Shown one piece after another: positions 9,549 through 34,152 of a stretch of 35,342 nucleotides of DNA. The DNA comes from a bacterium (GTDB taxonomy: Bacteria; Patescibacteriota; CPR2; UBA1875; JAJYID01), in NCBI GenBank assembly GCA_021787535.1, contig JAJYLR010000005.1:1-35342 (forward strand). Reading direction: 5' to 3'. Each line of letters starts with the position of its first letter. The first letter of the stretch is position 1. The translations under genes and the position numbers were made by a program. The notes beneath the pieces were generated by a model. The model was not told the DNA's origin. It worked only from the letters and a program-made list of their open reading frames with translations, and ran no database searches.

Positions 9549-12500
9549 TTGACTCCTCCGCCAAAAAGCCATCCTATGCTTGAAAATACCGATTTTAAAA
9601 TTAAATCCAGCACCGAAGGCCGCGCCTGCCCGGTCAGAGCTGAACGTACTTCTGATTTTGCTTCATTTTGCGATGCATCTTTGGTAACAATCCTGAAGTA
9701 ATAAGGAGTCGATGATTTCAAATGGGAAATAATGACAGCATGCGAGGTAACAAGCGACGTATCTTCCTGGGTTGCCAGATTTAAATTCCGGCCATTGCCG
9801 CCTTCCTCATATTCAACTTGAGAAGTGGCAGGTTCATCGGTAGTCCAAGAAACGATAAGCTGCGATTCAGTACTTACTCCATATCCTTCAGATGAATTTT
9901 CCGTTGTGATTTGCGAGATTGCCGGCGGCCTTGTGTCAGCTACGGTAGTAACGTCCTGGCTAACCGGAACGGCTTCGTTGCCAAGCCCGTCTCTTCCCCT
10001 AACCACCACTCTATAACTAGTTTTGTCTTTTAAGCCCGAGAGTATCATCTCATGTTGGGTAATTAACTGGTAATCGGAAACAGTTTGCACGACGCCTGCT
10101 GCATCCTGGTATTGTATCTGGGAAGAAGCAGGAACATTGGTATCCCAGGAAACCCTTAAACCAGAAGATGGCTGATCTGTCACTTGTTCGAATGTAGGAT
10201 TTGAAATTTTGGGAAAAGCAAGCGTTTCAAAAGAATAATCGTCAGACTGGACTAAATTGCCGGCTGAATCGTTTCCGGTGATTTTCAAATGATAGGTGCT
10301 TGAGTTATCAAGGCCGGTTAGGCGAATAGAGTGGCTGGTGCCTCCTCCGGCCGCTAATGTCGCACCATACTCAGTTGTTTTGCCATAATTGACGATAGAA
10401 GCCATGTCTTGCGTAGTCTGCCAGGACACAAGGGCGCTATCAGCATGGATATCGCTGATTTTTAAGTTTGAAATTTCCGCTGACAGAGGAGTGGTAAAAA
10501 CATAATCACCTGCATAATAGTCTTGATCGCTGTATGTTCTTTCCTGATCGAGAGATTGGATTTTATAGTGATAAGAGGCGCCAGGAATCAGACCTTTCAA
10601 AGAAACAGAGTGGTATGTAACCGCATCCTGAGAACCTGCAATTGACCCATAACTGGTATCCGTTCCGTAATCAACCGCAGATGAAGATACTCTGTCGGTT
10701 GACCATGTTATGTTTGCGGTAGTAGCCGATGTTGTCACTGAAGGAGGAGTTACTAAAGAAGGCATGCTCGTATATTTGCCGGTCGGCGTAATCGAAACAA
10801 CATTAGAAGGATCAGAGACATTATTATAGAGACCGCCGATCGTGTCATGTTCAACCGCTTCCACCCTGTAAGAATAATTTACATTTGAACTGCCGACTAT
10901 TTCTGCATAAGCTTGCTGTGTACCATCACTGGTTACACCAACCTGATGCCACGGTCCTCCGTTGTCTGAACGTTCTATTTGATAAAAGCTTACCTGGGTT
11001 CCGCCGGCTTGCGGAGCATCCCATGTTAAAGCTGCCGCCCAGACTCCCTTTGCCCTATTCGACACATCTGAGACCTCAAGCGATTGAGGAGGATTTGGAG
11101 GATTTCCTTTAATAGAAACTTGGATACTGGCAAGTTTCTGGCTGTCACTGGCAGAAGACCCGTGAAAAATCGCTTTCCATTTAAATTTACCCGTACCGCT
11201 GCCATAATTTCCCGTAAATGAAGAGATATTTTGATTAATGACAGAAGCAGTATTTAAATATGTATTGTCGGCTGCAACCGTCCAAGCCGTTCCGTCATAC
11301 CAATACCAAGTAGCTCCGTCATCATTTGACACTTGATAATAAATTGTGCCAGTGGAACCAGTACCCAGGTTTTCCTTAAAACCCATGAGCGTACTATAGT
11401 TTTGGCTTACATTTGGAATGATTGTCGATGTAGGGTAATAATATATGTTTACCCAGTCCGAACCAGCATTCACTGTTTTTAAATTATTTTGATAGCCCCC
11501 CGTATAACAGACGTTGGCACTTGGACAGCTAATCATAAATAAATTGTGCGTTATAGGTACGCTTTGAGCGACCCATGTAACACCACCATTCGTAGTCTTT
11601 AGGATAGTACCGAATTGTCCCACAGCAAAACCGGTATTGTTATTTATAAATTTAATATCATTCAGCCAATAGGAGGCCCCGGATGTTTGCGTATTCCAAT
11701 TTGCTCCGCCATTGATAGTTTGTAAAATTGTACCGGCATCCCCATCAGTATAACAAGTATTGGCATCCGTACAAGCAATACCATAAAGAGCGTTGCTTGT
11801 CCCTGATACTTGGGTATTCCAAGTATTGCCGCCATCGGTGGTTTTTAGTATTGTGCCAGCATCTCCAACTACATAACCAATATTGCCGTTGCCGGGAAAG
11901 TCAATTTCAACCATAAACGATATTGTATTAAAATTTTGAGCAGTCCAGCTGGCACCTCCATTCGTCGTTTGGAAAATAGCGCCTTTGTATGAGTTATTCT
12001 CTCCCGAAGCAAAACAAATATTAGCATCCCTGCAATACATAGAGTATATGAATCCGCTTACCGCACTAGTAGGATTCCAAGTATTGCCGCCATCGGTGGT
12101 TTTAAGGATAATATTATTGCCGCCCGCATAAGCGGTACTGTTATTTAAAAAATAAATACTATATAAAGCTGTCCCTGAATATTGCTGGGTCCAGTGGGCG
12201 CCTCCATCTGCGGTTTTATAAATCTTACCAGTACCAGAACTATCATAACCATCAATATAGCAAGTATTTGCATCAGTACAGTCAATACCATTGATATTAG
12301 CGAGTAAGGCATTATAGTTCCCTGCAGGGTATGCAAGCCCTCCGCTGATAGTTATTTCACTTGAGTTATAAGCATAGTTAGATGCATTATTTAAATCCCA
12401 TTCATAACTGGTGGAAGCTAACGTTCTTTGGGGAGCCATGAAAGAAAACACACTCAAAGAACTAAAGATAATACTTATGATATAAAAAGTCAGAATAGCC

Positions 12501-12679
12501 GCGTGAAAATGGCGACTCAAACGCCGGCTGTGCCATTTCCGGTACCAGGCCAGTTTATGAAGATACATATGCAAAGAAAAGGTTGTATGAAACCTAAGTA
12601 AATTTAAAACCCGCAAGTTGCTAGGATTGCTCAGTTTTTGTTTATTCTCGCGCTTACACTTGCTGATTTGAAACATCAT
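9545..12679 (-). CDS. giant FN3 surface protein D with seven-blade Ycf48-like propeller
   Basis: A 1044-aa surface protein. Residues about 29-57 carry the shared His/Trp motif (RFHTTFSLHMYLH, WYRKWH, HFH). A membrane helix and a TLAS signal-peptidase-like site follow near 80-90. Residues about 118-405 hold seven Ycf48/BNR-like repeats with TxDGGxxW signatures; blades 1, 3, 5 and 7 each contain C-x5-C. A linker domain (ISNDDGATWYWYDGTAW-like), one FN3 domain, and four Ig/FN3 domains of the WSTDR / SWQTT / SWDTNVP / SWTTDEP type come next. The shared tail SVLDLILKS...GWLFGGGVK ends the protein. A TATAAT lies 5 nt before the first ATG, and no Shine-Dalgarno is visible. Its stop overlaps the fused ABC gene. 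A surface adhesin or sheath role is inferred; no catalytic motif was seen. Confidence 0.85.
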   Translation of the reverse strand: MMFQISKCKRENKQKLSNPSNLRVLNLLRFHTTFSLHMYLHKLAWYRKWHSRRLSRHFHAAILTFYIISIIFSSLSVFSFMAPQRTLASTSYEWDLNNASNYAYNSSEITISGGLAYPAGNYNALLANINGIDCTDANTCYIDGYDSSGTGKIYKTADGGAHWTQQYSGTALYSIYFLNNSTAYAGGNNIILKTTDGGNTWNPTSAVSGFIYSMYCRDANICFASGENNSYKGAIFQTTNGGASWTAQNFNTISFMVEIDFPGNGNIGYVVGDAGTILKTTDGGNTWNTQVSGTSNALYGIACTDANTCYTDGDAGTILQTINGGANWNTQTSGASYWLNDIKFINNNTGFAVGQFGTILKTTNGGVTWVAQSVPITHNLFMISCPSANVCYTGGYQNNLKTVNAGSDWVNIYYYPTSTIIPNVSQNYSTLMGFKENLGTGSTGTIYYQVSNDDGATWYWYDGTAWTVAADNTYLNTASVINQNISSFTGNYGSGTGKFKWKAIFHGSSASDSQKLASIQVSIKGNPPNPPQSLEVSDVSNRAKGVWAAALTWDAPQAGGTQVSFYQIERSDNGGPWHQVGVTSDGTQQAYAEIVGSSNVNYSYRVEAVEHDTIGGLYNNVSDPSNVVSITPTGKYTSMPSLVTPPSVTTSATTANITWSTDRVSSSAVDYGTDTSYGSIAGSQDAVTYHSVSLKGLIPGASYHYKIQSLDQERTYSDQDYYAGDYVFTTPLSAEISNLKISDIHADSALVSWQTTQDMASIVNYGKTTEYGATLAAGGGTSHSIRLTGLDNSSTYHLKITGNDSAGNLVQSDDYSFETLAFPKISNPTFEQVTDQPSSGLRVSWDTNVPASSQIQYQDAAGVVQTVSDYQLITQHEMILSGLKDKTSYRVVVRGRDGLGNEAVPVSQDVTTVADTRPPAISQITTENSSEGYGVSTESQLIVSWTTDEPATSQVEYEEGGNGRNLNLATQEDTSLVTSHAVIISHLKSSTPYYFRIVTKDASQNEAKSEVRSALTGQARPSVLDLILKSVFSSIGWLFGGGVK

Positions 12680-12747: not shown

Positions 12748-13947
12748 CTATTCGTATCTAAGGGCGTTTAGGGCGCTGATTTTAGAAGCGCGCCTCGAGG
12801 GATAAGCGCCGGTTAAGAAGCTAATAAGTATTGATAATAAAAATGCGACGATAATAAGCTGGATCGGGAAAACGAATAACTGAACCGGAGTATTGCCGGT
12901 GGATTTAGCCAGTGCAAAGATACTGGCATTTAGAAATTCCGCGAGAAGGAAGCTTAAGATCATTCCTACAATACCGCCGATTACTCCGATGAGAAGCGCT
13001 TCGGTAATGAATATTTTTCTGATATCTTTTTTGGTAGTTCCCAAGGACTTCATAATACCTATCTCCCTGGTTTTTTCGATTAACGAGATAGTCAGCGTAT
13101 TGAACATGCCGATACATGACACTATAACGGCGATCAAACCGAAACCAGTTAGAACGATCCTAAAAACGCTGAAAAACTGATTTACTTGATCAACGGTATC
13201 TTTGACCGAACTGACTTTAAAACCCATATGTTCTATCAAAAGTTTAATCTTATCAACGTTATTCTGGCTAGTCACCTTAACCTTTGCTCCACTGTAGTTC
13301 ACTATCCCAAGCGCCTTCAGATTTTCGAGAGGAAGATAGACATACGGCGAGCTGCCTTCTTGCATTACCCCGACTATCCTATATTTTTTTTCTATAGTTT
13401 TGGTAATGCCTTGGCTGCTTCCTAACAATTCCGGCCGAAGTACCATTTTGAGATCAAGGTCATGCCCGAGACTGTCGCCATAGTTTGTAATACCCAGCTT
13501 CTTGACAGCTGTTTCATTAACCAAAATTTCATCTGCATTATCAGAAGAAAGGGTCTTGCCGGCAAGAATTTTTGGCTTTTCGATGTTCAAAACATCTTGG
13601 CTTTTGCCATAAACGATGCCATCAACCTTTGAACCTTGCAGTCCAAGGTTGCCGGCGACATTCACAACCGGGTAAACTTTTTCCACACCAAGAAGATTAG
13701 AAAATTTATTGATTGTATCGTTATTGATACTAACAATCTTAGACTTTCCCGTGTCAACATCTAAGATTTGCAAGGCCTGCATATTTGCTATCTGATCGGT
13801 CGAGACTTTCTGTAGCCCGTAGCCAAGTGATGTAAGAAAGGTGATAAAGCCAATGCTTATTGCTACACCGCCGGCCGTAAGAAAAGTCCTTAGCTTATAT
13901 CTTCTCAGGTTTTTGAAAGCAAGCTTTATGATAAAACGATATTTCAT
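12748..13947 (-). CDS. FtsX/MacB-like ABC permease
   Basis: A 399-aa permease with one N-terminal helix (TAGGVAISIGFITFLTSLGYG, about 24-44), a periplasm-type MacB domain of about 220 residues, and three C-terminal helices. The stretch SCIGMFNTLTISLIEKTREIG and the terminal RRASKISALNALRYE match the fused protein at 7545-9548 closely. Its ATG overlaps the UGA of the ATPase gene by four bases (ATGA), so the two are made together. GAGGGA upstream acts as ribosome binding site. The dimer would couple cytoplasmic ATP use to movement of the extracytoplasmic domain. Given the FN3 genes on both sides, export or release of those proteins is a reasonable guess. LolCE- and FtsX-like functions are alternatives. 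Confidence 0.92.
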   Translation of the reverse strand: MKYRFIIKLAFKNLRRYKLRTFLTAGGVAISIGFITFLTSLGYGLQKVSTDQIANMQALQILDVDTGKSKIVSINNDTINKFSNLLGVEKVYPVVNVAGNLGLQGSKVDGIVYGKSQDVLNIEKPKILAGKTLSSDNADEILVNETAVKKLGITNYGDSLGHDLDLKMVLRPELLGSSQGITKTIEKKYRIVGVMQEGSSPYVYLPLENLKALGIVNYSGAKVKVTSQNNVDKIKLLIEHMGFKVSSVKDTVDQVNQFFSVFRIVLTGFGLIAVIVSCIGMFNTLTISLIEKTREIGIMKSLGTTKKDIRKIFITEALLIGVIGGIVGMILSFLLAEFLNASIFALAKSTGNTPVQLFVFPIQLIIVAFLLSILISFLTGAYPSRRASKISALNALRYE

Positions 13948-14711
13948 TTCGCCAGTCCCTCCTCAGCAAGGTCTATAACCTGTTCTTCTTCCTCTTGGCT
14001 TATAACCGGTTTTTCTCTCTGTTCAATTTTTTTAATCAGACCGTCTTCCATGTAGATAAGCTTCGTGGCATAACGTTCATAATCGGTATTATGAGTAACC
14101 ATAATAATGGTTCGCCTCGACTCGCTGTTTAAGACCTTAAGATCATACATCAGATCTTCAGCGGTAATCGTATCGAGATTGCCGGTTGGTTCATCAGCTA
14201 GAACAATCCAAGGATTAGCGATCAGCGCCCGGCACATTGACAGTTTCTGCTGCTGGCCGCCGGAAAGCTCCATGGGATAATATTTTTCGTACTTATCAAA
14301 CTTAAAAAGATAAAGGATCTCCTTCGCCCTTTTCATAGCAGTATGATGGTGTACTCCAGCAATATTTAAGGGAAAAGCTACGTTTTCTATTACATTAAGA
14401 GATCTGATCCAGTTCGGCTGCTGATACACAACCCCAAACTTTTGGCGCCTGAAGTTTGCCCGGCCATCCTCATCCATAGTGTAAACATCTTTTCCCCGAA
14501 CCAAAACCTGGCCCTCAGTCGGTTCCTCAAGACCTAAGATCGTATTTAAAAGAGTACTTTTGCCACAGCCGGAAGGCCCTAAAATCACTACAAATTCTCC
14601 AAAATCAACTTTAAGATCAATTCCTTTAAGAACCGGTATTTCCTCTTTGCCGACTAAAAAATTCTTTTTTAATTTTCTAACTTCTAGTGTGGCATGTGAT
14701 CCGGATGCCAT
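13944..14711 (-). CDS. LolD/MacB-type ABC ATP-binding protein
   Basis: A 255-aa ATPase. P-loop GPSGCGKST at 45-53, Q-loop region [25 protein letters not shown] signature, [14 protein letters not shown] Walker B and [13 protein letters not shown]-loop are all intact. The C-terminal extension of about 30 residues is acidic. It is the partner of the permease downstream. It has its own SD (GAGGG) and a good promoter at 14763-14790, so the pair can be expressed apart from the long FN3 transcript. The sequence resembles the ATPase half of the fused transporter, including the unusual VYQ[EQ]xNWxxSLNVxEN segment. Confidence 0.94.
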
Positions 14712-14880: not shown

Positions 14881-17800
14881 TTATCCTCCAAAAAGCCAGC
14901 CCAAAGTTGACTCAAAAGATCTTAAAACCAGGTCAAAGATTGAAGACTGGGCTTGTTCGGTCAGAGCGGAGTTTTCGTCGGACTTGGCTTCGTTTTTGGA
15001 AGCATCCTTGGAAACAACCCGGAAGTAATAGGAACTTGAAGGGTCAAGGTCACTGACAACAACTACGTGTGACGTAGTAAGCACCGGATCTTCTTTGGTT
15101 GACATACCATAGACATCGCCGGAGACGCCTTTCGAGTATTCTATCTGGGAAGTGGCTGGCTCGTCTGTATTCCAGGAAACAATCAACTGGGCTTTGGCTT
15201 CTGTACCATATCCGCTGATTGAGGTCTCGGTAGTAATGTCCGAGATAACCGGCGGAGTGGTATCGAAGGCGGTTTTGTATTTTTGAGAGTCAGGGTTGGC
15301 ACTGTTGCCGTATGCGTCTCTGCCACTGACGGAAATGGTGTAATCTGAGTTGTCAGCCAGATGAGGAGTAATGATTTCGTGCTGCAATACTAAATCCGCC
15401 TTTGAAACTTCCTGAGAACCGCCCGGACCATTGTAGAGAACCGTGGAAGTGGTGGGAACATTGGAATCCCATGTTACTTTTAAGCCCGCGTTATTGCCGT
15501 TAAGCTGCTGATATTTGATATTTGAGATCTTTGGGAAAGTGAGAGTATCAAAGTTGTAATCATCTGACTGCATAATATTACCGTCAGTATCAGTGCCGAA
15601 TATCTTGAAATGATAGGTTGAGGAATCTTGAAGATTGGAAAGTTTAACCGTATGAGTGGTGACAGACGAACCGGATGAATCCGAGAGTTCTGAGCCGTAA
15701 GAGTTGGTTTTGCCGTATCTGATGGTTGAGGTAGCACTAGATGTAGTCTTCCAAGTCACGATAGCACTTGAGAGAGTAATATCTGAAATTTTAACGTCAC
15801 TAACTCCGGGGGCCGGTTGGGTAGAAAAGGTTTTGTCAGATGAGAACGCAGAATTGCCGTCGTAATCTTTGAGATCGGCAGAATCAAGAGATTGGACGCG
15901 GTAATGATAGATCGTACCCGGATCCAGGCCATAAAGAGTGACAGAATGAGAAGTGACCGTCTGAAGCGAGCTGTTTTGCATGCCGTAACCCGTATCTTTA
16001 CTATACTCCACCATAGAGTAAGAACTTCTGTCCGTTGACCAGGTAATGGTTGCCGAGGTGGCTGTAGCCGTTACATTCGGTCCGCTTACCATAGTTGGCG
16101 GAGTAATATATTTGCCTGTCGGGGCAAGAGAAACCACGCTTGAAAGAGAAGACTCGGCTCCGGCATTGTCAATGGCAGAAATTCTGTAGTAGTAAGCAGT
16201 ATCTTTGGTTAAGCTGGCCTCGGCATATGCCGGCGTTGAAGCCGTTCCAACCGGCGCCAGTGCCTGCCACTGAGCATCGCTTAAGCCGGCTACCGTTGTT
16301 TCTCGGATGATGTAATGGCCGAAGGTGTTTGCATTATAGTTGTCCGGCGCTTTCCACCCCAGAGCCAGGGCATAATCCGGCTTTTTGCGGTCGGAAACAT
16401 CGGAAATGGTCACCATCTGGGGAGCGTTAGGCGCTGCAGTCGTCACGTTGAAGTCAATCCAGCCGTAGTTTGCATAGTTGATTCTGCTCGGATTATTGTT
16501 ATCATAAGCCACAACATAGAATCTGTTTGTTCCTTGCTGGGTAGCGGCATGAATGGCGCCTGTGGTCAGGACATTGCCGAGATCAGCCGTGTTGTTTGCG
16601 TTCGGAAGATTATTGACGGAGTAGCGATAACCAGCGATCGTATTGCCGCTATGTACAAAAGACGGCGCCGTCCAGGTGAAGGTAAAGCTGTTTACAGTTT
16701 TCTCCTGATTGTCGACGCTTACGTTTTGAGGTTCGCTCGGAGCATCCAGGATGTACTGGTAAGTCACCTGATTTGTAGTTGAGATATTGCCGGCCTTATC
16801 TATCGCCCTTACCTGGAAGACATTGGCTCCATCGGTGTCGCCGTAGAGGCCGCTGACAGAAGTGGCTGTTGTGGATACCCAGCCCGAGACAGAACCTTTT
16901 TTGTATTCGTAATGGTCAAGTTCGCTTCTCTGCCCTGCTGTGCCGCTATCCGTCACTGCCGACCAGTTGAAACTGAAAGGTCCGGCTGACGGCTGGAGCG
17001 TGTTGGCATACAAGCTGGCCGGGGCGGGAGGAGCGCTTGAGTCATATTTGTAAGTTAGGAGAGTAACCGGTGCCGCCACATTCTGAGCATTATCCACGGC
17101 CGAAATGCGAAGATAATATGTTTGACCGTCAGTTAACGTTGGGGCAACCAGGTAATTGTTCACAGTGGCATCAACTGATGTCGGGATGTAATTTTGATCC
17201 GTGGTCAGTTTGGCGTAATATTCCCACACTCCGGAAGCTTCCGTTTCCCCGATTTTGATCGGATCGCTTGGCGGTGTCCAGACAAACTTAGGAGCGCTAT
17301 AGTTATGCCAAAGCTGAGTCGGATCATAGGTCCAGACTGCTCCGCCATCCGACTGATACGCCGTCACCCCGCTTATACCGGGATTATTGGGCGCGCCGGT
17401 ATCTGTAACATAAGTGACTGAGACGTTTGTAATAGTTACCAGAGCAGCGCCGCCAGACACCAGAAATGCCCGCCAGCGGAAGTTTCTGGGATTAGACCCG
17501 CCCGGACGAAAAGAAGCAATATTGGCCGTTACATCGCTCGAAGTATTTGTATTTGATCCCCCGGGATCGTAAGTATCGGGTGTGGCGGCTGTAACCCAAG
17601 CTGAGCCGTTCCATATATACCAGGTTATCCCGTTATCCGGAGAAATTTGAAACCGCACGCTTCCCCCGTTTCCACCGGTAGTAATACTCATAGCCGAGAT
17701 ATAGCTTTCGCTGAGCCCGTTTCCGCTCGCCTGGTTTTGAATGGTGGGATAGTTGTTGTCATAGAAACCTTCACATTGGCTCGCAGTATCCAGGTCTGTC

Positions 17801-19608
17801 ACCGTTACGGGGTTTGTGATGTTTGGGGAATATTCTTCTACAAGTTCAATTCCGGGATAACTAGCTGTTATGTAACCTTTATCTGAAACTGCCGCGCCGC
17901 CGCCACTGCAAGAAGTAGTGTATGTTCCGCCATAAAGAGTACAAATTGTTTGGGCGCTTAGATCTCCCTGATAGATCCTAACATCGCTCATATCTCCCTT
18001 TAGCCAATGCTGGTTCGGACCCCAAGCGCCATAGGATGATCCCAACCAATTTGGATTAGAGTAAGCTCCGCCAAATATCATATTCCCCGTATAGGCCGCT
18101 CCGCTCAAATGATTGGAATTTGTAAGGTCATAAACCTGGCTGGATGGAGTAAGATTATGAGCAGAATTTACTAAAGATCCATCGAAGTAGATACTGCTAT
18201 TGCCTGTGCCATCCCGTTCATAAACAATATAGTGCCAGGCACTGTCAGCACTAAGTGTATTCATTCCAGAATATTGATCAAAGTTATAGCCGTTGCCATC
18301 TCCTTGTCCGGCATGCTCCATAACCCAAAAGCTACCCAAGCTATTATCATAGGAGAGATGTATACCGGTATCATCACCTCCGCCATATTTTGTCAAAAAA
18401 TACTGCCAATCACCTGTTTCCGCGTCAAGCTTGACCCACATTCCATAAGAGTATGCTCCTTGGCCGAAATGCAGCTGGCCGGCATCTGACACAGCCACAT
18501 ACTCGCCCGACCCGTTAAAAGCTCTGGCGCTGTTTGTTTGTCCATACCTATTTGTGCCAGTTATGGCTGTTCCGATTGCCGCGCCATTATCGCTGTAGCC
18601 AGACTGATCATTTACGTTGTTTGTCAGATCCCAGGCGCCCGCAAGCGTTCCGTTAATAAAGACCGACGGCGCAGATGTATAACCGGTTCCTCCGTTTGTA
18701 ACTGTGATGCCTGTCACCGTCCCGCCGGTAACTGCAGCAGTGGCGGCAGCCCCTGTGCCCGGTCCTGAAAATGTAATGGTGGGCGCAGATGTATAACCGG
18801 TTCCTCCGTTTACGATCTGGATGTTGTTTTGGACAACTCCGCCGGAAACCGTTGCCGCAGCTTGAGCACCGCTGCCCGGACTGCCGTTATTAATTTCTTT
18901 GACAAAAATATTAGCCGGATTAGCTGCCGGAAGAGCAGCTAAGTTGTTGCCATAATACATGTAAATAGTTGTGTTCGTGGGAGAGGCCGCGATATCCGTC
19001 TTAACCCACGCTTTGACGGCCGTAGCGCTACATGATTCCACCCAATATGGCAAAGCGGTGTGCCCATCACTGGAAGTAAATCTCAAATCTTTGCAGGTAT
19101 CATCAAGCCTCGGACTATTGCCCGAAAGACTGATATTGACCGGTACTTGATAGCCGGTCTCAGCACTGCCTGAGTTCGAAATTGTCAGGGATTTGCGGTA
19201 ATAGAAGTGGTCGCCTCCCTCGTCTGCAATCCAGTCTGTCCCCGGTGTATGGCCTTTCAGCTGGGCCGAGCCGCTGCCGACTGTGATTTTTGTATTATCG
19301 TAAGAGTAGTCGCCGGGGGTATTAAACGTCCAGCTCTGGTTGGCCGCCAGCGAATTTCCCGGCAAAAGAGAGGCGAGAGAGCCAATCATAGTCGCCAAAA
19401 TATAGACGCCCAAAACGGCAACATGAACATGCTGATGCCATTTGAAACCATGCCACTTGCGGTACCACTTCACCCGATGTAGAAACATATGCATACTAAA
19501 GGTAGTGTGAAACCTCGCCCAGTTCAATGATCTCAATAAAACCTCTGTCTTTGTCCTAACAATCATTCTTTTCATAACCTTTTTCATTTTACCATACACA
19601 TTTGCCAT
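14881..19608 (-). CDS. giant FN3 surface protein C with DUF2341 and LamG-like domains
   Basis: At 1575 aa this is the largest protein here. The His/Trp N-terminal motif ([29 protein letters not shown]) lies at about 31-62, then a helix near 64-84 and a NSLA cleavage-like site. Residues about 137-218 look like DUF2341 ([12 protein letters not shown] ... YMYYGN), often tied to carbohydrate-binding surface proteins. Residues 267-314 hold two GGTGYTSAP repeats. Residues about 323-568 form a LamG/concanavalin-A-like domain ([14 protein letters not shown] ... [11 protein letters not shown]). About eight FN3/Ig-like domains follow, ending with the tail SIFDLVLRS...GWLFGG. Glycan or protein binding is inferred. 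No SD precedes ATG 19608; ATG at residue 12, behind AAAAAGG, is an alternative start. Confidence 0.85.
18668..18811. repeat. 30-bp direct repeats encoding GGTGYTSAP units
   Basis: The same 30 bases occur at 18668-18697 and 18782-18811, 114 bp (38 codons) apart. They encode [10 protein letters not shown] at the junction of the DUF2341 and LamG-like domains of protein C. Confidence 0.8.
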
Positions 19609-19732: not shown

Positions 19733-22700
19733 CTAGCCCCCGAAAAGCCAACCGAGCGTAGATGAAAATGATTTAAGAATCAGATCGAAAATTGAAGACT
19801 GCGCCTGCGCTGTCAGAGTTGAGTTCTCACTAGAGTTGGCAACATTGCCGGCCTTATCGCTGGAGACGGCTCTGAAATAATAAGAGCTGGATGGGTCAAG
19901 ATCTGAGACAACCACCACGTGGGAAGTCACAAGAGAATGATCGACCTTAGACGAAAGGCCGTAACTATCGCCGGAAACGCCTTTAGCATACTCAATTTGC
20001 GACGTCGATGGCTCATCTGTATTCCAGGAAACGACCATCTGTGCTTTGGCATCGGCGCCAAAACCGCTGATCGATGTCTCTGTTGTTATCTCAGATATCT
20101 CAGGCGGCGTGGTATCAGGGTCGGTTCTGACTTTAATGTTCGCATTCTCGCCTTCATTACCGTAAGCATCTCTGCCGATGGCGGTAATGGCGTAATCAGT
20201 ATCATCGGAGAGATGAGCTACTATAACCTCGTGTTGCAGAACCAGATCTGACTGGGTATTTTCAAGAGTTGTGCCGTTCGGCAGTTCACTATAATCAACC
20301 GTAGATGAGGTCGGTACATTGGAATCCCAAGTTATTTTAAGCGTAGCGATATTGCCCTTGACCTGGTCTGACTTTAGATTTGAAATTTTCGGCATAGTCA
20401 GAGTCGCAAAACTATAATCATCGGAGCTTAGCGAGTTGCCGTCAGTATCGGTTCCGAATATTTTAAAATGATATGTCGACGAATCATTCAAATTGGTAAG
20501 TTTTACCGTATGATTTGTCACGGCTGAACCCGATGGATCGGCATATTCCTGGCCATATGAATTCGTTTTGCCGTAATGCAGATCGGTTGTGGTGCTTGTG
20601 GTGCTCTGCCAGGTGATGACAGCACTGGTCAGGCGGATGTCGGAAATCTTCACGTTAGTCACGCCCGGTGGCGGCTGAGTGGTAAAAGTGTAGTCACCGG
20701 ATACGGCCGTGTCGGCACTATAATCGCGATATTCATCATAAGACTGCTGCCTGAAATGATAAGTCGTACCGGGACTTAAGCCCGATAAAGTCACCGAGTG
20801 GGTCACCACGCTATCAGGAGAACCCATGGACGATCCATAAGCAAAGGTTTGGCCGTATTGAATAAATGAGCTTGACGCCCTATCAGTCGACCATGTAATA
20901 GTCGCTGATGTAGCTGTAACTTTCACAGACGGCGGACGGATATCCGGCGGGGTAGGATATTTCCCCATCGGCTGCTTGGAGACGACATCCGAAGCGGGCG
21001 ATTGGGCTCCGGCATTGTCGGTTGCGATAATACGATAATAATACAACTTTGTATTGTCGAGGCCGGATTCGACAAATACCCTGGTGGATGCCGTGCCTGC
21101 CTGCACCCAATTACTTTGATCGGTAGAGCGCTGGACAATGTAGTGATCGACTGTCCCGCCGCTTGCCGGCGTATTCCAGGAAAGAGCCAGGGCCCACTTC
21201 GGCGGCGATGTGTTGCGGTTTGAAATATCGGAAATTACCGGCGCCGTCGGTACACCCGGCGCCGTAGTCTCGGCATCGAACTGGATAGAGGCAAAGTTCG
21301 CATAGTTGACATTGCCTGTCGTATCGATAGCCACAACATAGAAAGTGTTTAACCCTTGTTGAGTGGCGGCCGGGATGGCTCCCGTTGTAGTCGCTGTCGT
21401 ATAAACGCTGTTTGTAGCCGATGGGGTGACATTGACACTCCAGCGGTAACCGCTAATCCCTGTGTTATAGCTGGCCGGCAGCTGCCAACTGAAGTTAAAG
21501 CTGTTTTGGGTGTTGGTATTGGGGACAACGGCCAGATTTTGGGGAGCCGAAGGCGCGGCCTGGGAATAGTAATAGTTAATGCTTGTATAACCGCTAGCCG
21601 TGTTTCCGGCATTGTCGATCGTTCTTACCTCAAAAATATTGGTGCCGTTCTGGTAGGCCTGGATACCGCTCACGGAGTTGCCTGTCGTAAAGGTCCAGCT
21701 TGCATCAGTATCTCTTTTATACTCGTAACCTTTGATACCGGACTGTGAATCCGTTGCTCCCGACCAGGTGAAATCAAAACTGTTGACACTGCTCCAGCCG
21801 ACCGGATTTCTGTCAATCATAGTAGGGTTGGTGGGCGGTGTGGTATCTGGGGTATACGTAACATAAACCGAGTATTTATTGTTGTTATGGCTAAAGGACG
21901 CCGTACTCGGGGGTGTCCCGGCATAAGTACCCGGCTGGGTATGGCCCTGACTAGCCGCGCCACTATCATAACGTAAACTAGGATAATAAGTGCTGCCATT
22001 ATAATAATACCCGCCGGAAGAAACCATCAGAACATAATCTTGCGGAGTAATATCAGGGCTAGTTGGAAAGGTTGCCGTAATCAAATAGTCTCCTGTATAT
22101 CCGGTCAAAGTAGCAGTATTTGTAACGCCATTTAGGACCAACCCTGAGTCACTATGCCGATAAAGAGAACCTCTTGTAACATAAGAAGAAGATGAGGACT
22201 TTGTATCATCTAGCCAATAGGACATACTGGTACCGGCACCGTAGACGTTTGTGAAGGTAAATTCACTGCCCCTGTCAAGTGCTCCCAGCGAATCGTATGA
22301 TGAGCCCTTGACGGTATAACCGAATGTTGGATCCACAACGACGGGATAAACCGCCTTGTCTAGAAAATCCTGAGGTACGGTTACAGTCAAAAGGCCTTTG
22401 CCTGTATCAACATGCAGATCACCCCAGACTTTATTTCCGCGGGCGTCCGTAACTAAAGGCCGATAGATTTGGAAGGCCTTACCCGTGGCATAGTTTTTGC
22501 CTCCCATGGCTGTGTAATCGCCTTTTTTGCTTTTGTTATAAACCGCATAAGAACCGATAACATTTTCAGGGCGGATTTTGCCCTCAGCCCTTTCTTGAGG
22601 TGTCAAATCCGGCTGGTAAAAGAAATCAAGGTTCTTCGTGTCGATATTAAAGTTAACCTGATTTGTGCGGGGCTTTTTCTTCCAGGTCACATCAAACTCA

Positions 22701-23905
22701 AATTTCTGATCGCCTTTATCGAACTTAGAAAAGTTATCATCGATTCTTTTAGCGGCTTCAGTCCATTTCGTATCCTCCTGAATAGCGCGAAATTTGTTTG
22801 AGCCGGCTTTTTCTAAGTCGGTCAGACCGCTGCCACTAAGATGGGCACCAAACCTTGCCGCAATATTTTGGTTTATTGTGTCAGCTGCTGAGTAATCAAT
22901 GTGAGGATTAATTTCTCTTAATCCCCCAATCGGGAAAAGTACTGTATCTCTTGTTTTTGTCACAAGATTCATATTATTGACTAAATCGGTGCCGACAGGC
23001 GAGTCAAGATAGAGATAATAGCCGACGTAGTCGCCTTCCTGATCGATTCTTCCGAGCTGTTTAATTTTAGTGCCATCATGGTACATAAAAGCCGATTCGG
23101 TCTTAAATACATCGAGGCCATACTCTTTTTTGAGAGTCTCGATGATACTCGACTGAACCGTTTCCAAATATTCGGGATGTTTATCAAGGTTAGGCAGGTA
23201 AATATAGTTGATCATCACATTTGGGGTCGCTAAAATAACCGGACAGGTTTTTCTCTCGGCAGTTTTAAAACGGTAAATCGGCGCCGGCAAGTTGCTTAAG
23301 TTATCCAGATCAGTGGCAGCATTTCTATAACCCCAGAAAATGTAGGCGTTTCGGTCCATATGATAAGTGGCAATCATAGGGCCCGGTTTGTTCTGATGCC
23401 AGTAGTCGGTGAGCGAAGTCGCTTCATCGGGACTGATAGATCCCAAGTGAAGACTACGCATAGTATCCCAGCTGTCTGAGGCAGAGACAGATGAATCGTT
23501 GATTTTGTAGAAGCTTGCGCTTTCGTTGCCGCTATCCCATTTGGTGACCCCATTTTTATCAGTTTTTTGGGCTGATCCAAGATTAGACAAGCCGATTTTC
23601 ATGACCCCTTCATCGCCCCATTTTTTCAGTGTTACTTCGGCTTTGGGAATGATATCATTGTTGATTTCAACTCTGCCATCAGCTCCGACCTTGATAACCT
23701 TTGGCTTTTGGGTGATATAGTCGGTTATCGGAATAATAATCTTTTGCTGAAAAAAGAAGGCGCCCAGAATTATAAAGGGCAGCAAAACCCATAACAAAAC
23801 CATGCTGGCAACAGCAGCCGCTCCATACTGCACACCCCTGTAAAGCTTCGGGTAAGTTTTGTTAATCCGCAGAATTTTTTTTGCGTTTTTTCTCACTCTT
23901 TTCAT
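19733..23905 (-). CDS. giant FN3 surface protein B with N-terminal membrane anchor
   Basis: A 1390-aa protein that differs from its neighbours at the N-terminus. It has a basic start (MKRVRKNAKKILRINK) and a long hydrophobic segment at about 24-52 without an obvious cleavage site, and it lacks the His/Trp motif. Residues about 60-530 form a large domain ending in VYPVVVDPTFGY, a motif I recall from other big Patescibacteria surface proteins. A region of about 150 residues rich in Tyr/Ser follows, then FN3 domains from about 680. The last four match those of A, C and D, and the tail is SIFDLILKS...GWLFGG. It follows gene A after 46 nt with no clear SD, so it may be read from the A transcript. 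Function is inferred only as cell-surface. Confidence 0.85.
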   Translation of the reverse strand: MKRVRKNAKKILRINKTYPKLYRGVQYGAAAVASMVLLWVLLPFIILGAFFFQQKIIIPITDYITQKPKVIKVGADGRVEINNDIIPKAEVTLKKWGDEGVMKIGLSNLGSAQKTDKNGVTKWDSGNESASFYKINDSSVSASDSWDTMRSLHLGSISPDEATSLTDYWHQNKPGPMIATYHMDRNAYIFWGYRNAATDLDNLSNLPAPIYRFKTAERKTCPVILATPNVMINYIYLPNLDKHPEYLETVQSSIIETLKKEYGLDVFKTESAFMYHDGTKIKQLGRIDQEGDYVGYYLYLDSPVGTDLVNNMNLVTKTRDTVLFPIGGLREINPHIDYSAADTINQNIAARFGAHLSGSGLTDLEKAGSNKFRAIQEDTKWTEAAKRIDDNFSKFDKGDQKFEFDVTWKKKPRTNQVNFNIDTKNLDFFYQPDLTPQERAEGKIRPENVIGSYAVYNKSKKGDYTAMGGKNYATGKAFQIYRPLVTDARGNKVWGDLHVDTGKGLLTVTVPQDFLDKAVYPVVVDPTFGYTVKGSSYDSLGALDRGSEFTFTNVYGAGTSMSYWLDDTKSSSSSYVTRGSLYRHSDSGLVLNGVTNTATLTGYTGDYLITATFPTSPDITPQDYVLMVSSGGYYYNGSTYYPSLRYDSGAASQGHTQPGTYAGTPPSTASFSHNNNKYSVYVTYTPDTTPPTNPTMIDRNPVGWSSVNSFDFTWSGATDSQSGIKGYEYKRDTDASWTFTTGNSVSGIQAYQNGTNIFEVRTIDNAGNTASGYTSINYYYSQAAPSAPQNLAVVPNTNTQNSFNFSWQLPASYNTGISGYRWSVNVTPSATNSVYTTATTTGAIPAATQQGLNTFYVVAIDTTGNVNYANFASIQFDAETTAPGVPTAPVISDISNRNTSPPKWALALSWNTPASGGTVDHYIVQRSTDQSNWVQAGTASTRVFVESGLDNTKLYYYRIIATDNAGAQSPASDVVSKQPMGKYPTPPDIRPPSVKVTATSATITWSTDRASSSFIQYGQTFAYGSSMGSPDSVVTHSVTLSGLSPGTTYHFRQQSYDEYRDYSADTAVSGDYTFTTQPPPGVTNVKISDIRLTSAVITWQSTTSTTTDLHYGKTNSYGQEYADPSGSAVTNHTVKLTNLNDSSTYHFKIFGTDTDGNSLSSDDYSFATLTMPKISNLKSDQVKGNIATLKITWDSNVPTSSTVDYSELPNGTTLENTQSDLVLQHEVIVAHLSDDTDYAITAIGRDAYGNEGENANIKVRTDPDTTPPEISEITTETSISGFGADAKAQMVVSWNTDEPSTSQIEYAKGVSGDSYGLSSKVDHSLVTSHVVVVSDLDPSSSYYFRAVSSDKAGNVANSSENSTLTAQAQSSIFDLILKSFSSTLGWLFGG

Positions 23906-23951: not shown

Positions 23952-26900
23952 TTATCTGCTGCTTCCTCCAAACATCCAGCCAAGAGTCGATTCAAAAGAT
24001 TTGAGCACCAGATCAAAGACTGAAGATTGGGCTTGTTCAGTCAGAACAGAGTTTGCATCAGATTTAGCTTGATTTTTAGATGCATCCTGCGAAACCACTC
24101 GGAAGTAATATGAACTGGACGGATCTAAATCGCTGATCACTACCACATGAGAAAGACTTAAGCTTGAGTCCATACCCGTAGCCATGGAGTATGTGTCGCC
24201 GGACACGCCTTTCGAATACTCTACCTGTGAAGTAGCCGGCTCATCAGTATTCCAGGAGACAACTATTTGCGCTTTGGCATCGGAGCCAAAACCGCTAATA
24301 GAAGTTTCTGATGTAATCGCCGAAATAGCGGGCGGGGTTGTATCATAGTCGGTTCTAATCTTATATGATAAAGGGGCAACCTCATTGCCGTATTCATCCC
24401 TGCCTTTTACGCTCAAACTATACGCCATATTATCTTTCACATTAGGTACAACTACCTCATGCTTCAAAACAGGCAGTATCTGCGAAACTTCTCCTTGATG
24501 GCCGTTTGTATCAGAGTACTGAACCGTTGAAGTAGTAGGTACATTCGAATCCCAAGTCACTTTCAAAGTAGCAGTGTTTCCGCTTATTTCGTTGACCATC
24601 AAGTTATCTATTTTTGGAAAAGTCAGGGTATCAAAGCTGTAATCGTCTGAATGCATCTGATTGCCGTCTGTGTCGGTTCCAAATATTTTGAAATGATAAG
24701 TCGAGGAGTCGTCAAGGCCGGTCAGTCGGATGGTATGCGTTGTCAGCGCAGATCCTGACGTGTCGGATATTTCCGTACCGTAACCGGTGTTTTTACCATA
24801 CTTAAGCGTGGAGGTGGCGCTCGAGGTCGTCTGCCAGGAAACCGTAGCGTTTGTGAGTCCTATATCTGTTATTTTTACGTCCGAAATGCCGGGAGCCGGC
24901 AAGGTTTTCAAAATCATATCGGGGCCGACCGCCGTAGAAATGTCGTAGTCGCGGGCATCGTCGTAGGACTGCTGCCTGAAATGGTATTCCGTGCCCGGAT
25001 CAAGGCCGGAAATCGTCACGGTGTGGGTAGTAACGCTGTCAGGAGAGCCGTTTGATGACCCATAACCGGTGGTTTTGCCGTATTGAATGAAGGAGCTTGA
25101 AGCCCTGTCGGTAGACCAGGTGATAGTTGCCGATGTTGCTGTCACTGTAAAGTCCGGCGGACGAATATCCGGATGAACAGTGTATTTTCCTGTAGGTCTC
25201 CCTGAAACGGCGTCTGAAGGCACCGACTCGGCAGCCGCATTATCGACGGCTAAAACTCTGTAATAGTAGGTTGTGGCATTATCAAGTTCCGCTTCTGCAA
25301 AGTCGGTGGAAACGGCCGTGCCCGCCTGCGTCCATGTCACCTGGTCCAGCGAGCGCTGGATAATATAGTGATCGACGCTTCCGGTTGACGGAGTATTCCA
25401 AGAGATGGCCAGAGCCCAGTTCGGCGGCGTAGAGTTTCTGTTTGAGATATCGGAAATAAGCAAATTCAGAGGCACGCCCGGTGCCGTAGTATCTGCCTCA
25501 AACTGAATAGAAGTATAGTTGGCATAGTTGACATTGTTTAAAACATCAACCGCCACCACGTAGAAAGTATTGAGTCCTTGCTGGGTCGCAGCAGGAATAG
25601 CGCCGGTCGTGGTATCGGCGATAAAGGTAGTGTTGGACGCCGAAGGCAAGGCATTGACGCTCCAGCGGTAGCCGCTTATCTGGCCCGCGGCAAAACCTGT
25701 CGGAAGCTGCCAGTTGAAGGTGAAACTGTTTAAAGTGCTTGTATTAGGCGTAACCTGCAGGTTTTGAGGCGCAGTAGGCGCATTCTGGGCGTAGTAATAG
25801 TTAATCTGGGTCACAGAGGACTCATTGCCGGCATTATCAAGCGCCTTCACCATGAAAACATTAGTGCCGTTTTGGTAGGCCTGGATAGCGCTCGCAGAAG
25901 CGCTCGCCGTAAATGTCCAACTAGCGTCTGTCTGCCTTTTGTATTCATATCCTTTCAACCCGGAGTCCGCATCCGCCGATACTGACCAGGTAAAACTGAA
26001 ACTATTTGTACTGGTCCAACCGACAGGGTTTCTGTCTATCGAGGAAATGGTAGTAGGCGCCACATTATCAAATTTATAAGTAAAAAGAGTGCTTGTGGAT
26101 GAAACATTACCGTCATTATCCCATGTGGCCAGCCTTAAATAATAGGTTTGGTCGTTTACCAGGGTTATGCCGGCATCACTCGGCTGAAAGTGCTCGTTGC
26201 CAGCCGGTATTCCTCCGCCCGTTGAACAGCCAATATTTGTTGAGAAACAATAACTATACCCCCAAACCCCTGAAGCAGTTTCTCCATTTGCCGTATCCGC
26301 ATTATCGCTTGGCTGCGGCCAGGTGAAATAAGGGTTGGGATTATTGTGCCAATCCCCGGAGTTTATAGACGCACCGCCTTGCTGAGAGAAACCGTTTACA
26401 GAAGCCACATTATTCGGAGGCAGAGTATCTTCGATGGTGACACTGACATTATCCAGCTTGGTTTCCTGATTGCCGTCTGAGTTCAGAAATGCTTTCCATT
26501 TGAAATCATGAGTGCCGGCCCCAAATGTTCCAGTAAATGAAGAAATGTAGCTATTGATGGTTGAAGCTGGGTTTGACTGCGTATAAGTTCCGTTAGCAGC
26601 CGTCCAGGCAGAGCCGTTCCACCAGTACCACGTGATACCGTTGTCATTTGATATTTCATATTGGATATTACCGGTTGATCCGCTACCCCGGGCCTCAGTA
26701 AAACCGGTGATGACATTATATTTATGACTGATATTGGCTGTAACCGTAGGGTTGTCAATAACCGGAGCATTTGAAGACCAGTTTGTACCATCTGTAGTAT
26801 GAACTATGGTACCGCTTGTACCTACCACATAGCCGTTGGTGGCACTTGTAAAGTAAGTAGCATAACGATTTAAAGTTGTACCAGAATTTTGAGCAGACCA

Positions 26901-27917
26901 AGTGGTGCCGTCTGATGTGTGGAAAATAGCACCGCTGTTTCCTACCACATAGCCGTTGGTAGCGCTGGTGAAAGAGATATCCCAGAGAGACTGGGTTATA
27001 CCCGAAGCTTGAGCAGACCAAGTGGTGCCGTCTGATGTGTGGAGAATTGTACCGCTGTTGCCTAGCACGTAACCATTGGTGGCACTAGTGAAAGAGATGC
27101 CTTCAAGGCCTTGGGTTGTACCCGAAGTCTGGGGCGACCAGGTGGTGCCATCTGACGTATGGAGGATGGTACCATTGCCTCCTACCGCATAGCCATTGGT
27201 AGCGCTGGTGAAATAGGTGCGCCAAAGCCATTGGGTTGTACCCGAAGTCTGGGGCGACCAGGTGGTGCCATCTGACGTATGGAGGATGGTGCCGGCGTCT
27301 CCCGTCGCATATCCGTTGGTGGCGCTGGTGAAAAAAACTCCAGCAAGCCATCTGGTTGTACCGGAAGTCTGGGGCGACCAAGTGGTGCCGTCTGATGTGT
27401 GTAGGATGGTGCCATTACCTCCTACTGCATAACCGTTGGTGGCGCTGGTGAAATAGACACCATAAATACTTTGGGTTGTACCGGAAGCTTGAGCAGACCA
27501 AGTGGTGCCGTCTGATGTGTGAAGGATGGTGCCATTACTCCCTAATGCATAGCCGTTGGTGGCACTCTGAAAATAAATCGCAGTTAAAGTATTGGTGTTT
27601 ACCCTATGATCTGTTAGTTCGGCAACGCCTCCTGTGAAATCTATTTTTGAACTATCATAAGTATATTCAGATGCCGTGTTTAAATCCCAGTTGGCGAGAG
27701 AACTGGCCAGAGCGCTTGAAGGGTGAGTTACAGCAAAAAACGATCCGAAAGATGCCATAGCGATAACAAAAATATAGGCGCCCAAAACCGTCGCATGAAT
27801 ATGCTGGTGCCACTTGAAACCATGCCATTTTCTGTACCACTTCAGCTTATGCAGAAACATATGCAAGCTAAAAGTGGTGTGAAATCTTATATGATGCCAC
27901 AACTCTACCGGATCCAT
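23952..27917 (-). CDS. giant FN3 surface protein A with seven near-identical propeller blades
   Basis: A 1321-aa protein. Residues 11-41 carry the His/Trp motif with nine histidines in residues 8-41. A helix at about 44-63 and a SSALAS cleavage-like site follow. Residues about 106-385 are seven Ycf48-like repeats of exactly 40 residues (NGYAVGGNGTILHTSDGTTW type), enough to close a seven-blade propeller. A linker domain (about 386-495), then FN3-like domains at about 496-620, 620-705, 705-805 and 805-907, come next. Four more Ig/FN3 domains run to 1290, and the tail is SVFDLVLKS...GWMFGGSSR. It is first of the giant genes, with its own promoter and a possible operator at 27943-28006. An adhesin-like surface role is inferred; no enzyme motif is visible. 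Confidence 0.87.
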   Translation of the reverse strand: MDPVELWHHIRFHTTFSLHMFLHKLKWYRKWHGFKWHQHIHATVLGAYIFVIAMASFGSFFAVTHPSSALASSLANWDLNTASEYTYDSSKIDFTGGVAELTDHRVNTNTLTAIYFQSATNGYALGSNGTILHTSDGTTWSAQASGTTQSIYGVYFTSATNGYAVGGNGTILHTSDGTTWSPQTSGTTRWLAGVFFTSATNGYATGDAGTILHTSDGTTWSPQTSGTTQWLWRTYFTSATNGYAVGGNGTILHTSDGTTWSPQTSGTTQGLEGISFTSATNGYVLGNSGTILHTSDGTTWSAQASGITQSLWDISFTSATNGYVVGNSGAIFHTSDGTTWSAQNSGTTLNRYATYFTSATNGYVVGTSGTIVHTTDGTNWSSNAPVIDNPTVTANISHKYNVITGFTEARGSGSTGNIQYEISNDNGITWYWWNGSAWTAANGTYTQSNPASTINSYISSFTGTFGAGTHDFKWKAFLNSDGNQETKLDNVSVTIEDTLPPNNVASVNGFSQQGGASINSGDWHNNPNPYFTWPQPSDNADTANGETASGVWGYSYCFSTNIGCSTGGGIPAGNEHFQPSDAGITLVNDQTYYLRLATWDNDGNVSSTSTLFTYKFDNVAPTTISSIDRNPVGWTSTNSFSFTWSVSADADSGLKGYEYKRQTDASWTFTASASASAIQAYQNGTNVFMVKALDNAGNESSVTQINYYYAQNAPTAPQNLQVTPNTSTLNSFTFNWQLPTGFAAGQISGYRWSVNALPSASNTTFIADTTTGAIPAATQQGLNTFYVVAVDVLNNVNYANYTSIQFEADTTAPGVPLNLLISDISNRNSTPPNWALAISWNTPSTGSVDHYIIQRSLDQVTWTQAGTAVSTDFAEAELDNATTYYYRVLAVDNAAAESVPSDAVSGRPTGKYTVHPDIRPPDFTVTATSATITWSTDRASSSFIQYGKTTGYGSSNGSPDSVTTHTVTISGLDPGTEYHFRQQSYDDARDYDISTAVGPDMILKTLPAPGISDVKITDIGLTNATVSWQTTSSATSTLKYGKNTGYGTEISDTSGSALTTHTIRLTGLDDSSTYHFKIFGTDTDGNQMHSDDYSFDTLTFPKIDNLMVNEISGNTATLKVTWDSNVPTTSTVQYSDTNGHQGEVSQILPVLKHEVVVPNVKDNMAYSLSVKGRDEYGNEVAPLSYKIRTDYDTTPPAISAITSETSISGFGSDAKAQIVVSWNTDEPATSQVEYSKGVSGDTYSMATGMDSSLSLSHVVVISDLDPSSSYYFRVVSQDASKNQAKSDANSVLTEQAQSSVFDLVLKSFESTLGWMFGGSSR
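26761..27600. repeat. seven tandem 120-bp repeats encoding propeller blades
   Basis: Units begin every 120 bases from 26761 to 27481. They share, for example, GGTGGTGCCATCTGACGTAT at the same phase at 27141 and 27261. Each encodes one 40-residue blade of protein A; the outermost units are the most diverged. Confidence 0.93.
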
Positions 27918-28072: not shown

Positions 28073-28561
28073 TTAAGGGCCAATCACCCAGTCATCAATA
28101 GGAAGCAGCGTATTACAGTTTGCATCGCTTGCATCATAAGGGATCACCATATAATATCCTATACCTGTTTTGCTGTGACCTTGAGCATCTCTTATTGTAA
28201 ATGAATGTTCCCGCCCGTCATAATAGACCCAGCCGCCGCCGCCACAATCAGCTGATGACGCGGGTTTGACCTCTAAAGCAGGTTCCGCATCAGAAAAAAT
28301 GACCCATCCCGTGCCATTCCATGGAGAAATGGAGGTATCTGGATAAGATTTATTATGCGCATACCAGGCCTCAAAACCGGCACGGATATTTTTCACATCT
28401 GACCTGCGCTGGGTATCGGTCTGAATATCTCTAGCCACTTTTATGGCACCGACTACCAGAGTCGCAAGAACGGCAATAATCGCCATAACTACCACAAGCT
28501 CTATCAAAGTGAAGCCGTCTTCTTGGCTCATAATTGAATGCGTTTTTTTATTCTTGCCCAT
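28073..28561 (-). CDS. type IV pilin-like protein at the head of the surface locus
   Basis: A 162-aa prepilin-like protein. The leader ends in Gly16 before FTLIELVVVM, with Glu at mature position 5, and a membrane helix spans 17-40 (VVVMAIIAVLATLVVGAI, shared with 981-1511). The C-terminal domain has two cysteines, C106 and C149, and a GGGGW stretch. Its ATG shares one base with the UAA of the 51-aa ORF before it (TAATG), with AAGG upstream, so the two are translationally coupled. It lies in front of the FN3 gene array on the same strand. Either a surface pilus subunit or a pseudopilin of an export machine; no assembly ATPase or PilD gene is in the window. Confidence 0.9.
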   Translation of the reverse strand: MGKNKKTHSIMSQEDGFTLIELVVVMAIIAVLATLVVGAIKVARDIQTDTQRRSDVKNIRAGFEAWYAHNKSYPDTSISPWNGTGWVIFSDAEPALEVKPASSADCGGGGWVYYDGREHSFTIRDAQGHSKTGIGYYMVIPYDASDANCNTLLPIDDWVIGP

Positions 28562-33347: not shown

Positions 33348-34151
33348 CTAAAATAAATCATACTTTCTGAAATCACGGTTTAAACTCCTGATTGTTTCTT
33401 CTAAATGCGGCAGTTCTTTGACCTGATGCTTTAGGCGGCCTTCCCACATCCGTGCATATTTGTCCTTCTTTTCATTCAGGCTCTCCTTTAGCCTGCCCGG
33501 GTCAATATTCTTGAACTCCGCCTTCTCCCGGAACGCATCTGGAATCCTGTGAAAATCAATCTCATTTATTCCAAACAGATAATTCACATCGTAAATATCA
33601 CGCGGTTCGGTCCTGCCGATAATGGCGCAGAGCTTTTCGATCAGGATTTCTTCAAGGGTGTATGTGAGAAGCGTTCGAGCAACGACGTCGCTGTATGGTG
33701 AATGGATCTCTTTGGATGCGATTAGGAAGATCAGTTTCTCCGAGAGAGTGAAATCGACTTTGATATTTCGCGACTCCAGCCTAGCTTGTAGTGGACCAAC
33801 AAAATTGATGTAAGCGGTTAAACTATCAGCCCTCTTCTCAATCTTCTCTTCTGGCACCACAAACTGAAATCCTCGTTCTTTGGCCAATCCGGCCAGAACT
33901 TCGTTTAGCATCTGGAGCAGCTGATCATTTGAGAGCTGCTTCGTGAGCGTGAAATCGAGGTCCTCAGAATATCGATAATCGGGAAAGTAAATTTTCTTGA
34001 GCGCGGTGCCGCCTTTGAAGGCCAAAGAATTTTTGAGGCCTGAATCCGCCAAAGCCAAGAGAATCCAGGTGATGACGTAATCTTTCTCGATGACCTTGTC
34101 ACTCATGCCCTCGCGGAAGGCTAATTTGGAAATCTCTGCCTGTGGGATCAT
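33348..34151 (-). CDS. abiEii: AbiEii-type nucleotidyltransferase toxin
   Basis: A 267-aa DUF1814-type nucleotidyltransferase. FKGGTALKKIYFPDYRYSED holds the active site (GG at 47-48; S62, E63, D64, D66 in RYSEDLDF). LEEILIEKLCAIIGRTEPRD and IYDVNYLF form the later conserved block. In AbiE systems this toxin stops growth (relatives modify tRNA ends or bind GTP), giving abortive phage resistance or plasmid-type stability. Its ATG lies one base after the UAA of the antitoxin gene, so they are co-translated. All catalytic positions look intact. Confidence 0.9.
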   Translation of the reverse strand: MIPQAEISKLAFREGMSDKVIEKDYVITWILLALADSGLKNSLAFKGGTALKKIYFPDYRYSEDLDFTLTKQLSNDQLLQMLNEVLAGLAKERGFQFVVPEEKIEKRADSLTAYINFVGPLQARLESRNIKVDFTLSEKLIFLIASKEIHSPYSDVVARTLLTYTLEEILIEKLCAIIGRTEPRDIYDVNYLFGINEIDFHRIPDAFREKAEFKNIDPGRLKESLNEKKDKYARMWEGRLKHQVKELPHLEETIRSLNRDFRKYDLF

Positions 34152-34152
34152 T

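Follow-up and report, generated by a model that had tools for sequence, protein, structure and literature searches.

Related propeller systems

The closest solved structures to the protein described here belong to Ycf48 (PDB 2xbg and 5ojr; Pfam PF14870), a seven-bladed propeller that binds D1 through a patch of six arginines (PMC10403576). Propellers of a second kind, the highly repetitive ones, have a median internal amino-acid identity above 60% and blades that are closer to each other than to blades outside the protein, as set out in a survey of such proteins (Pereira and Lupas 2022, PMC9218822). In the HET-E protein of Podospora anserina, the codons under positive selection map to two places on top of the propeller, the D-A loop and the B-C turn, where they form pairs round a residue that is fixed (PMC1805685). 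Seven-bladed propellers are also found in PilX2 and PilY1 on the type IV pili of Saccharibacteria, and for PilX2 a role as a host-binding head has been proposed (PMC12206443). The Patescibacteria in cultivation live as episymbionts, and the means by which ultrasmall episymbiotic bacteria recognize and hold their hosts are largely unknown (PMC12206443).

We analyzed a window of 35,342 bases, which is an entire contig of a 945-kb genome (97% complete, seven contigs). Ribosomal protein uL30 was absent from this genome and from 20 of the 20 relatives searched, and was present in 13 of 14 control genomes. A missing uL30, together with a small genome, is a mark of Patescibacteria (CPR). The subject of this study, protein P, is by our inference a secreted or cell-surface protein of this bacterium. 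We think it probable, with some reserve, that P is a surface protein whose closed seven-blade head was made by single-blade amplification, and that this head, with its varied top face, acts as a multivalent binding head on a swappable chassis.

Protein P and its repeat array

The repeat array forms only the N-terminal head of P, which is a longer protein with a signal peptide and an FN3 stalk. Pfam matches were PSII_BNR (PF14870) at 93.4 bits, against a gathering cut-off of 27, and fn3 at 75 bits. The features of the gene are as follows, with unit limits given in the phase of strand A.

23952..27917, minus strand: protein P, 1,321 aa (open reading frame and Pfam), with signal peptide/TM, predicted seven-bladed Asp-box propeller, beta-rich linker domain, FN3 stalk and conserved C-terminus
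27717..27803, minus strand: hydrophobic signal-peptide/TM segment, aa 39-67 (Kyte-Doolittle up to 1.99), followed by an AxA-like SALAS site (cleavage site placed by eye)
27468..27587, minus strand: blade unit 1 (aa 111-150)
27348..27467, minus strand: blade unit 2
27228..27347, minus strand: blade unit 3, with a 60-nt exact tract common with unit 4
27108..27227, minus strand: blade unit 4, with a 60-nt exact tract common with unit 3
26988..27107, minus strand: blade unit 5
26868..26987, minus strand: blade unit 6
26748..26867, minus strand: blade unit 7, the most diverged, its end merging into the next domain
26430..26765, minus strand: beta-rich domain after the propeller, common to protein D and many relatives
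24048..25550, minus strand: FN3-type stalk region (Pfam; limits approximate)
23955..24050, minus strand: conserved C-terminal element of P

Seven consecutive in-frame units of 120 nt (40 codons) each, with zero indels, span positions 26748-27587 on the minus strand, confirming the seven phased 120-bp repeats of the initial annotation, whose limits of 26761-27600 describe the same array in another phase. Tandem Repeats Finder (TRF) scored the array at 631-763, and it was the only strong array in the window. The same annotation had called the DNA of the units near-identical, which is too strong because pairs of units are 59-82% identical (71-98 of 120 nt) and exact identity extends over 60 nt at most, between units 3 and 4. 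At the protein level, unit pairs share 19-34 of 40 residues (48-85%), mean amino-acid identity within the array is 0.73, and unit 7 is the outlier. Since no exact repeat exceeds 60 nt, a collapsed short-read assembly at this array is unlikely. A higher TRF score at period 240 raised the idea that two blades (240 nt) had been the unit of amplification, which we rejected on finding that the units group as 1/5/6 and 2/3/4, with no alternation.

Predicted fold and blade number

An AlphaFold model of the propeller, computed from an alignment of seven natural sequences, comprised seven units of three or four strands each, with pLDDT of about 87-97 over the ring and pTM of 0.79. Foldseek returned the Ycf48 structures 5ojr and 2xbg as the best PDB matches of this model (E about 1e-12, TM 0.67-0.74), with the designed seven-bladed WRAP-T 7bie lower in the list (TM 0.84 by target), and a phmmer search of P against the PDB found Ycf48 chains only (E about 1e-14). 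The profile score of P clears the PF14870 gathering cut-off, and the predicted model matches structures that are closed rings of seven blades. The head of P is thus predicted to be a closed seven-bladed Asp-box ring with the Ycf48 fold; the aligned model and its Foldseek matches support the complete Ycf48-like propeller that had been proposed at the outset. The N-terminal strand, a possible ring closer, has pLDDT below 50 in the aligned model. In each unit, DSSP places strand A at positions 1-6, B at 12-16, C at 21-24 and D near 31-34. The Asp-box of P reads TSDGTTW or TTDGTNW, one residue shorter than SxDxGxTW, and most relatives have TTDGGxxW or similar. A single-sequence AlphaFold run (mean pLDDT 57) gave no propeller, and Foldseek matched its model to beta-solenoids with E above 0.01; this fold was dropped as a no-alignment artefact because the aligned model gave a propeller.

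P shares with Ycf48 the seven-bladed fold and a sequence match at the level of the family; it differs in its symmetric blades and in having no photosystem context. That the head might be a chaperone-like assembly factor as Ycf48 is, binding a nascent membrane-protein partner, would fit with Ycf48 being the closest solved structure. This possibility is very remote, however, given that P scores 83.8 bits against the Ycf48 equivalog model NF010237, far under its cut-off of 326, that a six-arginine D1-binding patch is impossible in a propeller with three Arg and no Lys, and that the stalk and chassis of P are unlike Ycf48. By these scores and residue counts, P is not a Ycf48 orthologue. A search for literature on Ycf48-like proteins in Patescibacteria returned none in the library covered.

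Blades were counted in relatives with a blade profile iterated from P. Among repetitive arrays, the profile found 7 blades in P, 7 in genome G002, 14 in G003, 7 in one protein of G036 and 7+7 in a second, 14 in G188, 14+7 in G347 and 7+7 in G373. The differentiated propeller of protein D also has seven blades, as do most relatives on viral contigs, several of which are interrupted by a long insertion behind blade five. Lower counts came from a few relatives that are divergent or truncated, and in these proteins detection is poor. The recurrence of 7, 7+7 and 14 in distant relatives supports seven as a ring constraint, the number being held by ring closure, and with it the earlier argument that seven is the number needed to close the ring.

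Ten viral stretches from IMG/VR (L055-L064) carry Ycf48-like propellers, mostly with seven detected blades. A peptide-pattern search of viral contigs found no close relative, and among the genome contigs searched there was one distant relative, from Stahlbacteria.

Age and origin of the array

Among the blade sequences compared, the nearest neighbour of a blade lay within its own array for 7 of 7 blades in P, 6 of 6 in G002 and 13 of 13 in G188, versus 0 of 6 in D, and in a tree every D blade paired with the same-numbered blade of the D orthologue in G006. That the blades of P are closest to each other, and those of D to their counterparts in the orthologue, shows that P is the product of a separate, array-specific amplification, and the contrast between P and D that had been drawn from the window itself is borne out.

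In these respects P is a young propeller of a known kind. As in the young Asp-Box propellers described in the survey (PMC9218822), its blades are more than 60% identical and mutually closest, and their number is the value preferred in the lineage. P differs from the near-identical cases given there in being older at silent sites, and it is set in the FN3-stalk surface chassis of a Patescibacterium.

The amplification had been described as recent, and the synonymous comparison gives this no support. Between units 1-6 of P the mean silent divergence (pS) is 0.55; when only fixed residues are counted it is 0.54, where saturation would give 0.82. The pS between D and its G006 orthologue, which belongs to another genus, is 0.125, about one quarter of the value between blades of P. 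The young case is the array of G002, with DNA identity of 86-97% and a pS of 0.16. An array that was recently amplified or is under active gene conversion, with unit numbers varying between strains as at a contingency-like locus, would be expected to show some of what we found: blades that cluster by array, the identical tract that units 3 and 4 share, and a low P value (0.006, in one register) from a Sawyer-type test of silent codons. Yet the same test gave P = 0.09 in another register and P = 0.18 for the longest run, the mean silent divergence of P is about two thirds of saturation and far from the between-genus value of D, and the repetitive relatives have unit numbers of seven or its multiples. 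We regard this explanation as improbable. Of the gene conversion that had been suggested together with recency, a faint indication persists in the first register, which the second register and the longest run do not bear out.

In the G002 array (L039, 7600-8215), five blades have almost the same DNA over their second half (about 65 nt, codons 19-40), and the first halves form two silent haplotypes, which suggests half-blade conversion or shuffling in that array. Together, the young array of G002, the array of P and the old ring of D make a natural series that gives a view of a closed repeat fold amplifying and differentiating.

Variation on the top face

More than half (56%) of the non-synonymous differences between the blades of P fall in 7 of the 40 codons: two that end the D-A loop, three that open strand A, and a pair in the B-C loop. 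The same seven codons hold 74% of such differences in G002, 39% in G003 and 41% in G188, and this placing ranks first among all rotations in each of the four arrays tested (P, G002, G003 and G188). The top-face positions were picked after viewing P and G002; the rotation test is fresh for G003 and G188, and a comparison of six arrays is fresh for G003, G188 and G036. Averaged over the six arrays, the within-array amino-acid difference is 0.91, 0.81, 0.91 and 0.76 at positions -1, 2, 17 and 18, and 0.22, 0.16 and 0.19 at the neighbouring positions 1, 16 and 19. By the DSSP strand limits, the D-A loop contains variable positions 39-40 and the B-C loop 17-18, and the A-B and C-D loops are less variable than these. 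Arrays of Patescibacteria that were amplified independently have their blade differences concentrated on one face, at the D-A and B-C loops. Variation of blade faces from strain to strain had been put forward as possible; no close strain carries P, and it is within the array that the variation is seen to lie on one face. In G036 (L043, L044), the B-C loops of several blades bear insertions that differ in length and sequence (e.g., DCGVSCTGNTP, GGSSRLPVTG and GGTYPTPGDAD), again on the top face.

In G002, dN/dS is 1.77 at top-face codons versus 0.12 elsewhere, with equal dS, and ten top-face amino-acid changes were observed against 5.6 expected if neutral (Poisson P = 0.056, borderline). In P itself, dS is saturated at the top-face codons. 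Relaxed constraint could yield much of this pattern because the top-face loops are the least constrained part of a propeller, and P might then be an ordinary young propeller, amplified from a single blade, with its core under purifying selection, neutral drift in permissive loops, and a ring that is a mere spacer on a long surface protein. Consistent with this account are the high synonymous and low non-synonymous divergence of the core, the borderline excess in G002, and the wide occurrence of young propellers, of which Asp-box proteins make up about 5% (PMC9218822). It is harder to square with the fact that variability peaks at the same four positions in six arrays, beside residues that are nearly fixed, and that the A-B and C-D loops vary less; the dN/dS contrast in G002 and the length insertions in the B-C loops of G036 also weigh against it. 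We consider drift in permissive loops a doubtful explanation, and we infer that selection rather than loose constraint lies behind the change at the top face.

The WD40 repeats of HET-E, HET-D and HNWD resemble P in keeping the blade core conserved and in varying at pairs of positions, next to fixed residues, in the D-A loop and B-C turn of the top face. P differs from them in being an Asp-box protein, bacterial and probably extracellular, with a unit number of seven; repeat exchange is undemonstrated in its array, and positive selection is borderline, as judged from G002. The likeness of the top face of P to that of HET-E is close, and the selection acting on it is putative. Young propellers being already known, the chief interest of P is its repeatedly varied top face, which suggests a surface recognition head.

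Heads and chassis

Three further genes of the window encode proteins related to P outside the propeller, and transporter genes adjoin them.

9545..12679, minus strand: protein D, same chassis, with an old, differentiated seven-bladed propeller (about 11450-12292)
14881..19608, minus strand: protein B, same chassis, with a DUF2341 head
19733..23905, minus strand: protein C, same FN3 stalk and C-terminus, with a different head
12748..14711, minus strand: LolCDE/MacB-type ABC permease and ATPase adjoining the chassis genes, syntenic in relatives

All four proteins (P, C, B and D) end in the conserved C-terminal element, which has no further full-length match in the genome; its near-identical sequence, SSxFDLVLKSFxSTLGWxFGG, is possibly a C-terminal anchor or sorting element. 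P, B and D also have in common an N-terminal signal region rich in His (RFHTTFSLHMxLHKxKWYRKWH). The site beside the OGT and DUF72 genes is occupied, in G006 and G002, by a DUF2341 chassis protein, which in G006 also has a LamG-type lectin fold, and D plus its ABC genes are conserved in G006. The DUF2341 chassis protein at this syntenic site argues that P is an extra paralogue with a swapped head. P resembles PilX2 and PilY1 in being a seven-bladed propeller in a Patescibacterium, proposed as a host-binding head, but those proteins have RCC1-type blades on a minor pilin whereas P has its own FN3 chassis.

LolCDE/MacB-type ABC transporters lie between the chassis genes at 7545-9572 and 12748-14711; relatives have them in synteny, with 74-97% identity in G006, and they may serve export or insertion of the chassis proteins. 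On contig 53 of G002 (L040/L116, 1-850), the syntenic chassis protein has DUF2341 and, after it, the first part of another repeat (NWNRIASSADGTKLAAVVNGGQIYTSTDSGATWTARAPSQ), within which the contig ends; the assembly probably broke at a further young propeller. The chassis cluster is flanked by two proteins that resemble pseudopilins and carry N-methylation motifs (981-1511 and 28073-28561). At 33348-34998, a nucleotidyltransferase/AbiEi-like pair, recognized by eye from the translations, resembles an AbiE-type toxin-antitoxin or defence module.

Proposed role

In the arrangement that we propose, an N-terminal hydrophobic signal would be followed by the closed seven-bladed Asp-box head and then by the FN3 stalk. 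A single blade would have been amplified within this lineage to give the ring, whose closure would hold the count at seven. Purifying selection would keep the blade core, and divergence of the D-A and B-C loops of the top face would leave seven similar, non-identical putative binding positions round one face. This face may bind a ligand on another cell or in a matrix, as an adhesin or recognition head. Heads would be exchanged on the shared chassis, on which P and D carry propellers, B carries DUF2341, and a relative carries DUF2341 with a LamG-type lectin fold.

A wider generalization, which we offer tentatively and think rather unlikely to hold in full, is that Patescibacteria repeatedly amplify one Asp-box blade to seven (or twice seven), with the core fixed, diversifying selection on the D-A and B-C loops, and heads swapped on a signal-peptide/FN3 chassis. 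In such proteins bacteria would have an extracellular counterpart to the variable HET-E/HNWD propellers of fungi, drawn from a different propeller lineage. If this is true, such heads could set which host cell an episymbiont binds. Rings whose core is fixed and whose face varies, separately amplified in several lineages on an interchangeable surface chassis, provide named genes and residues for tests of host recognition.
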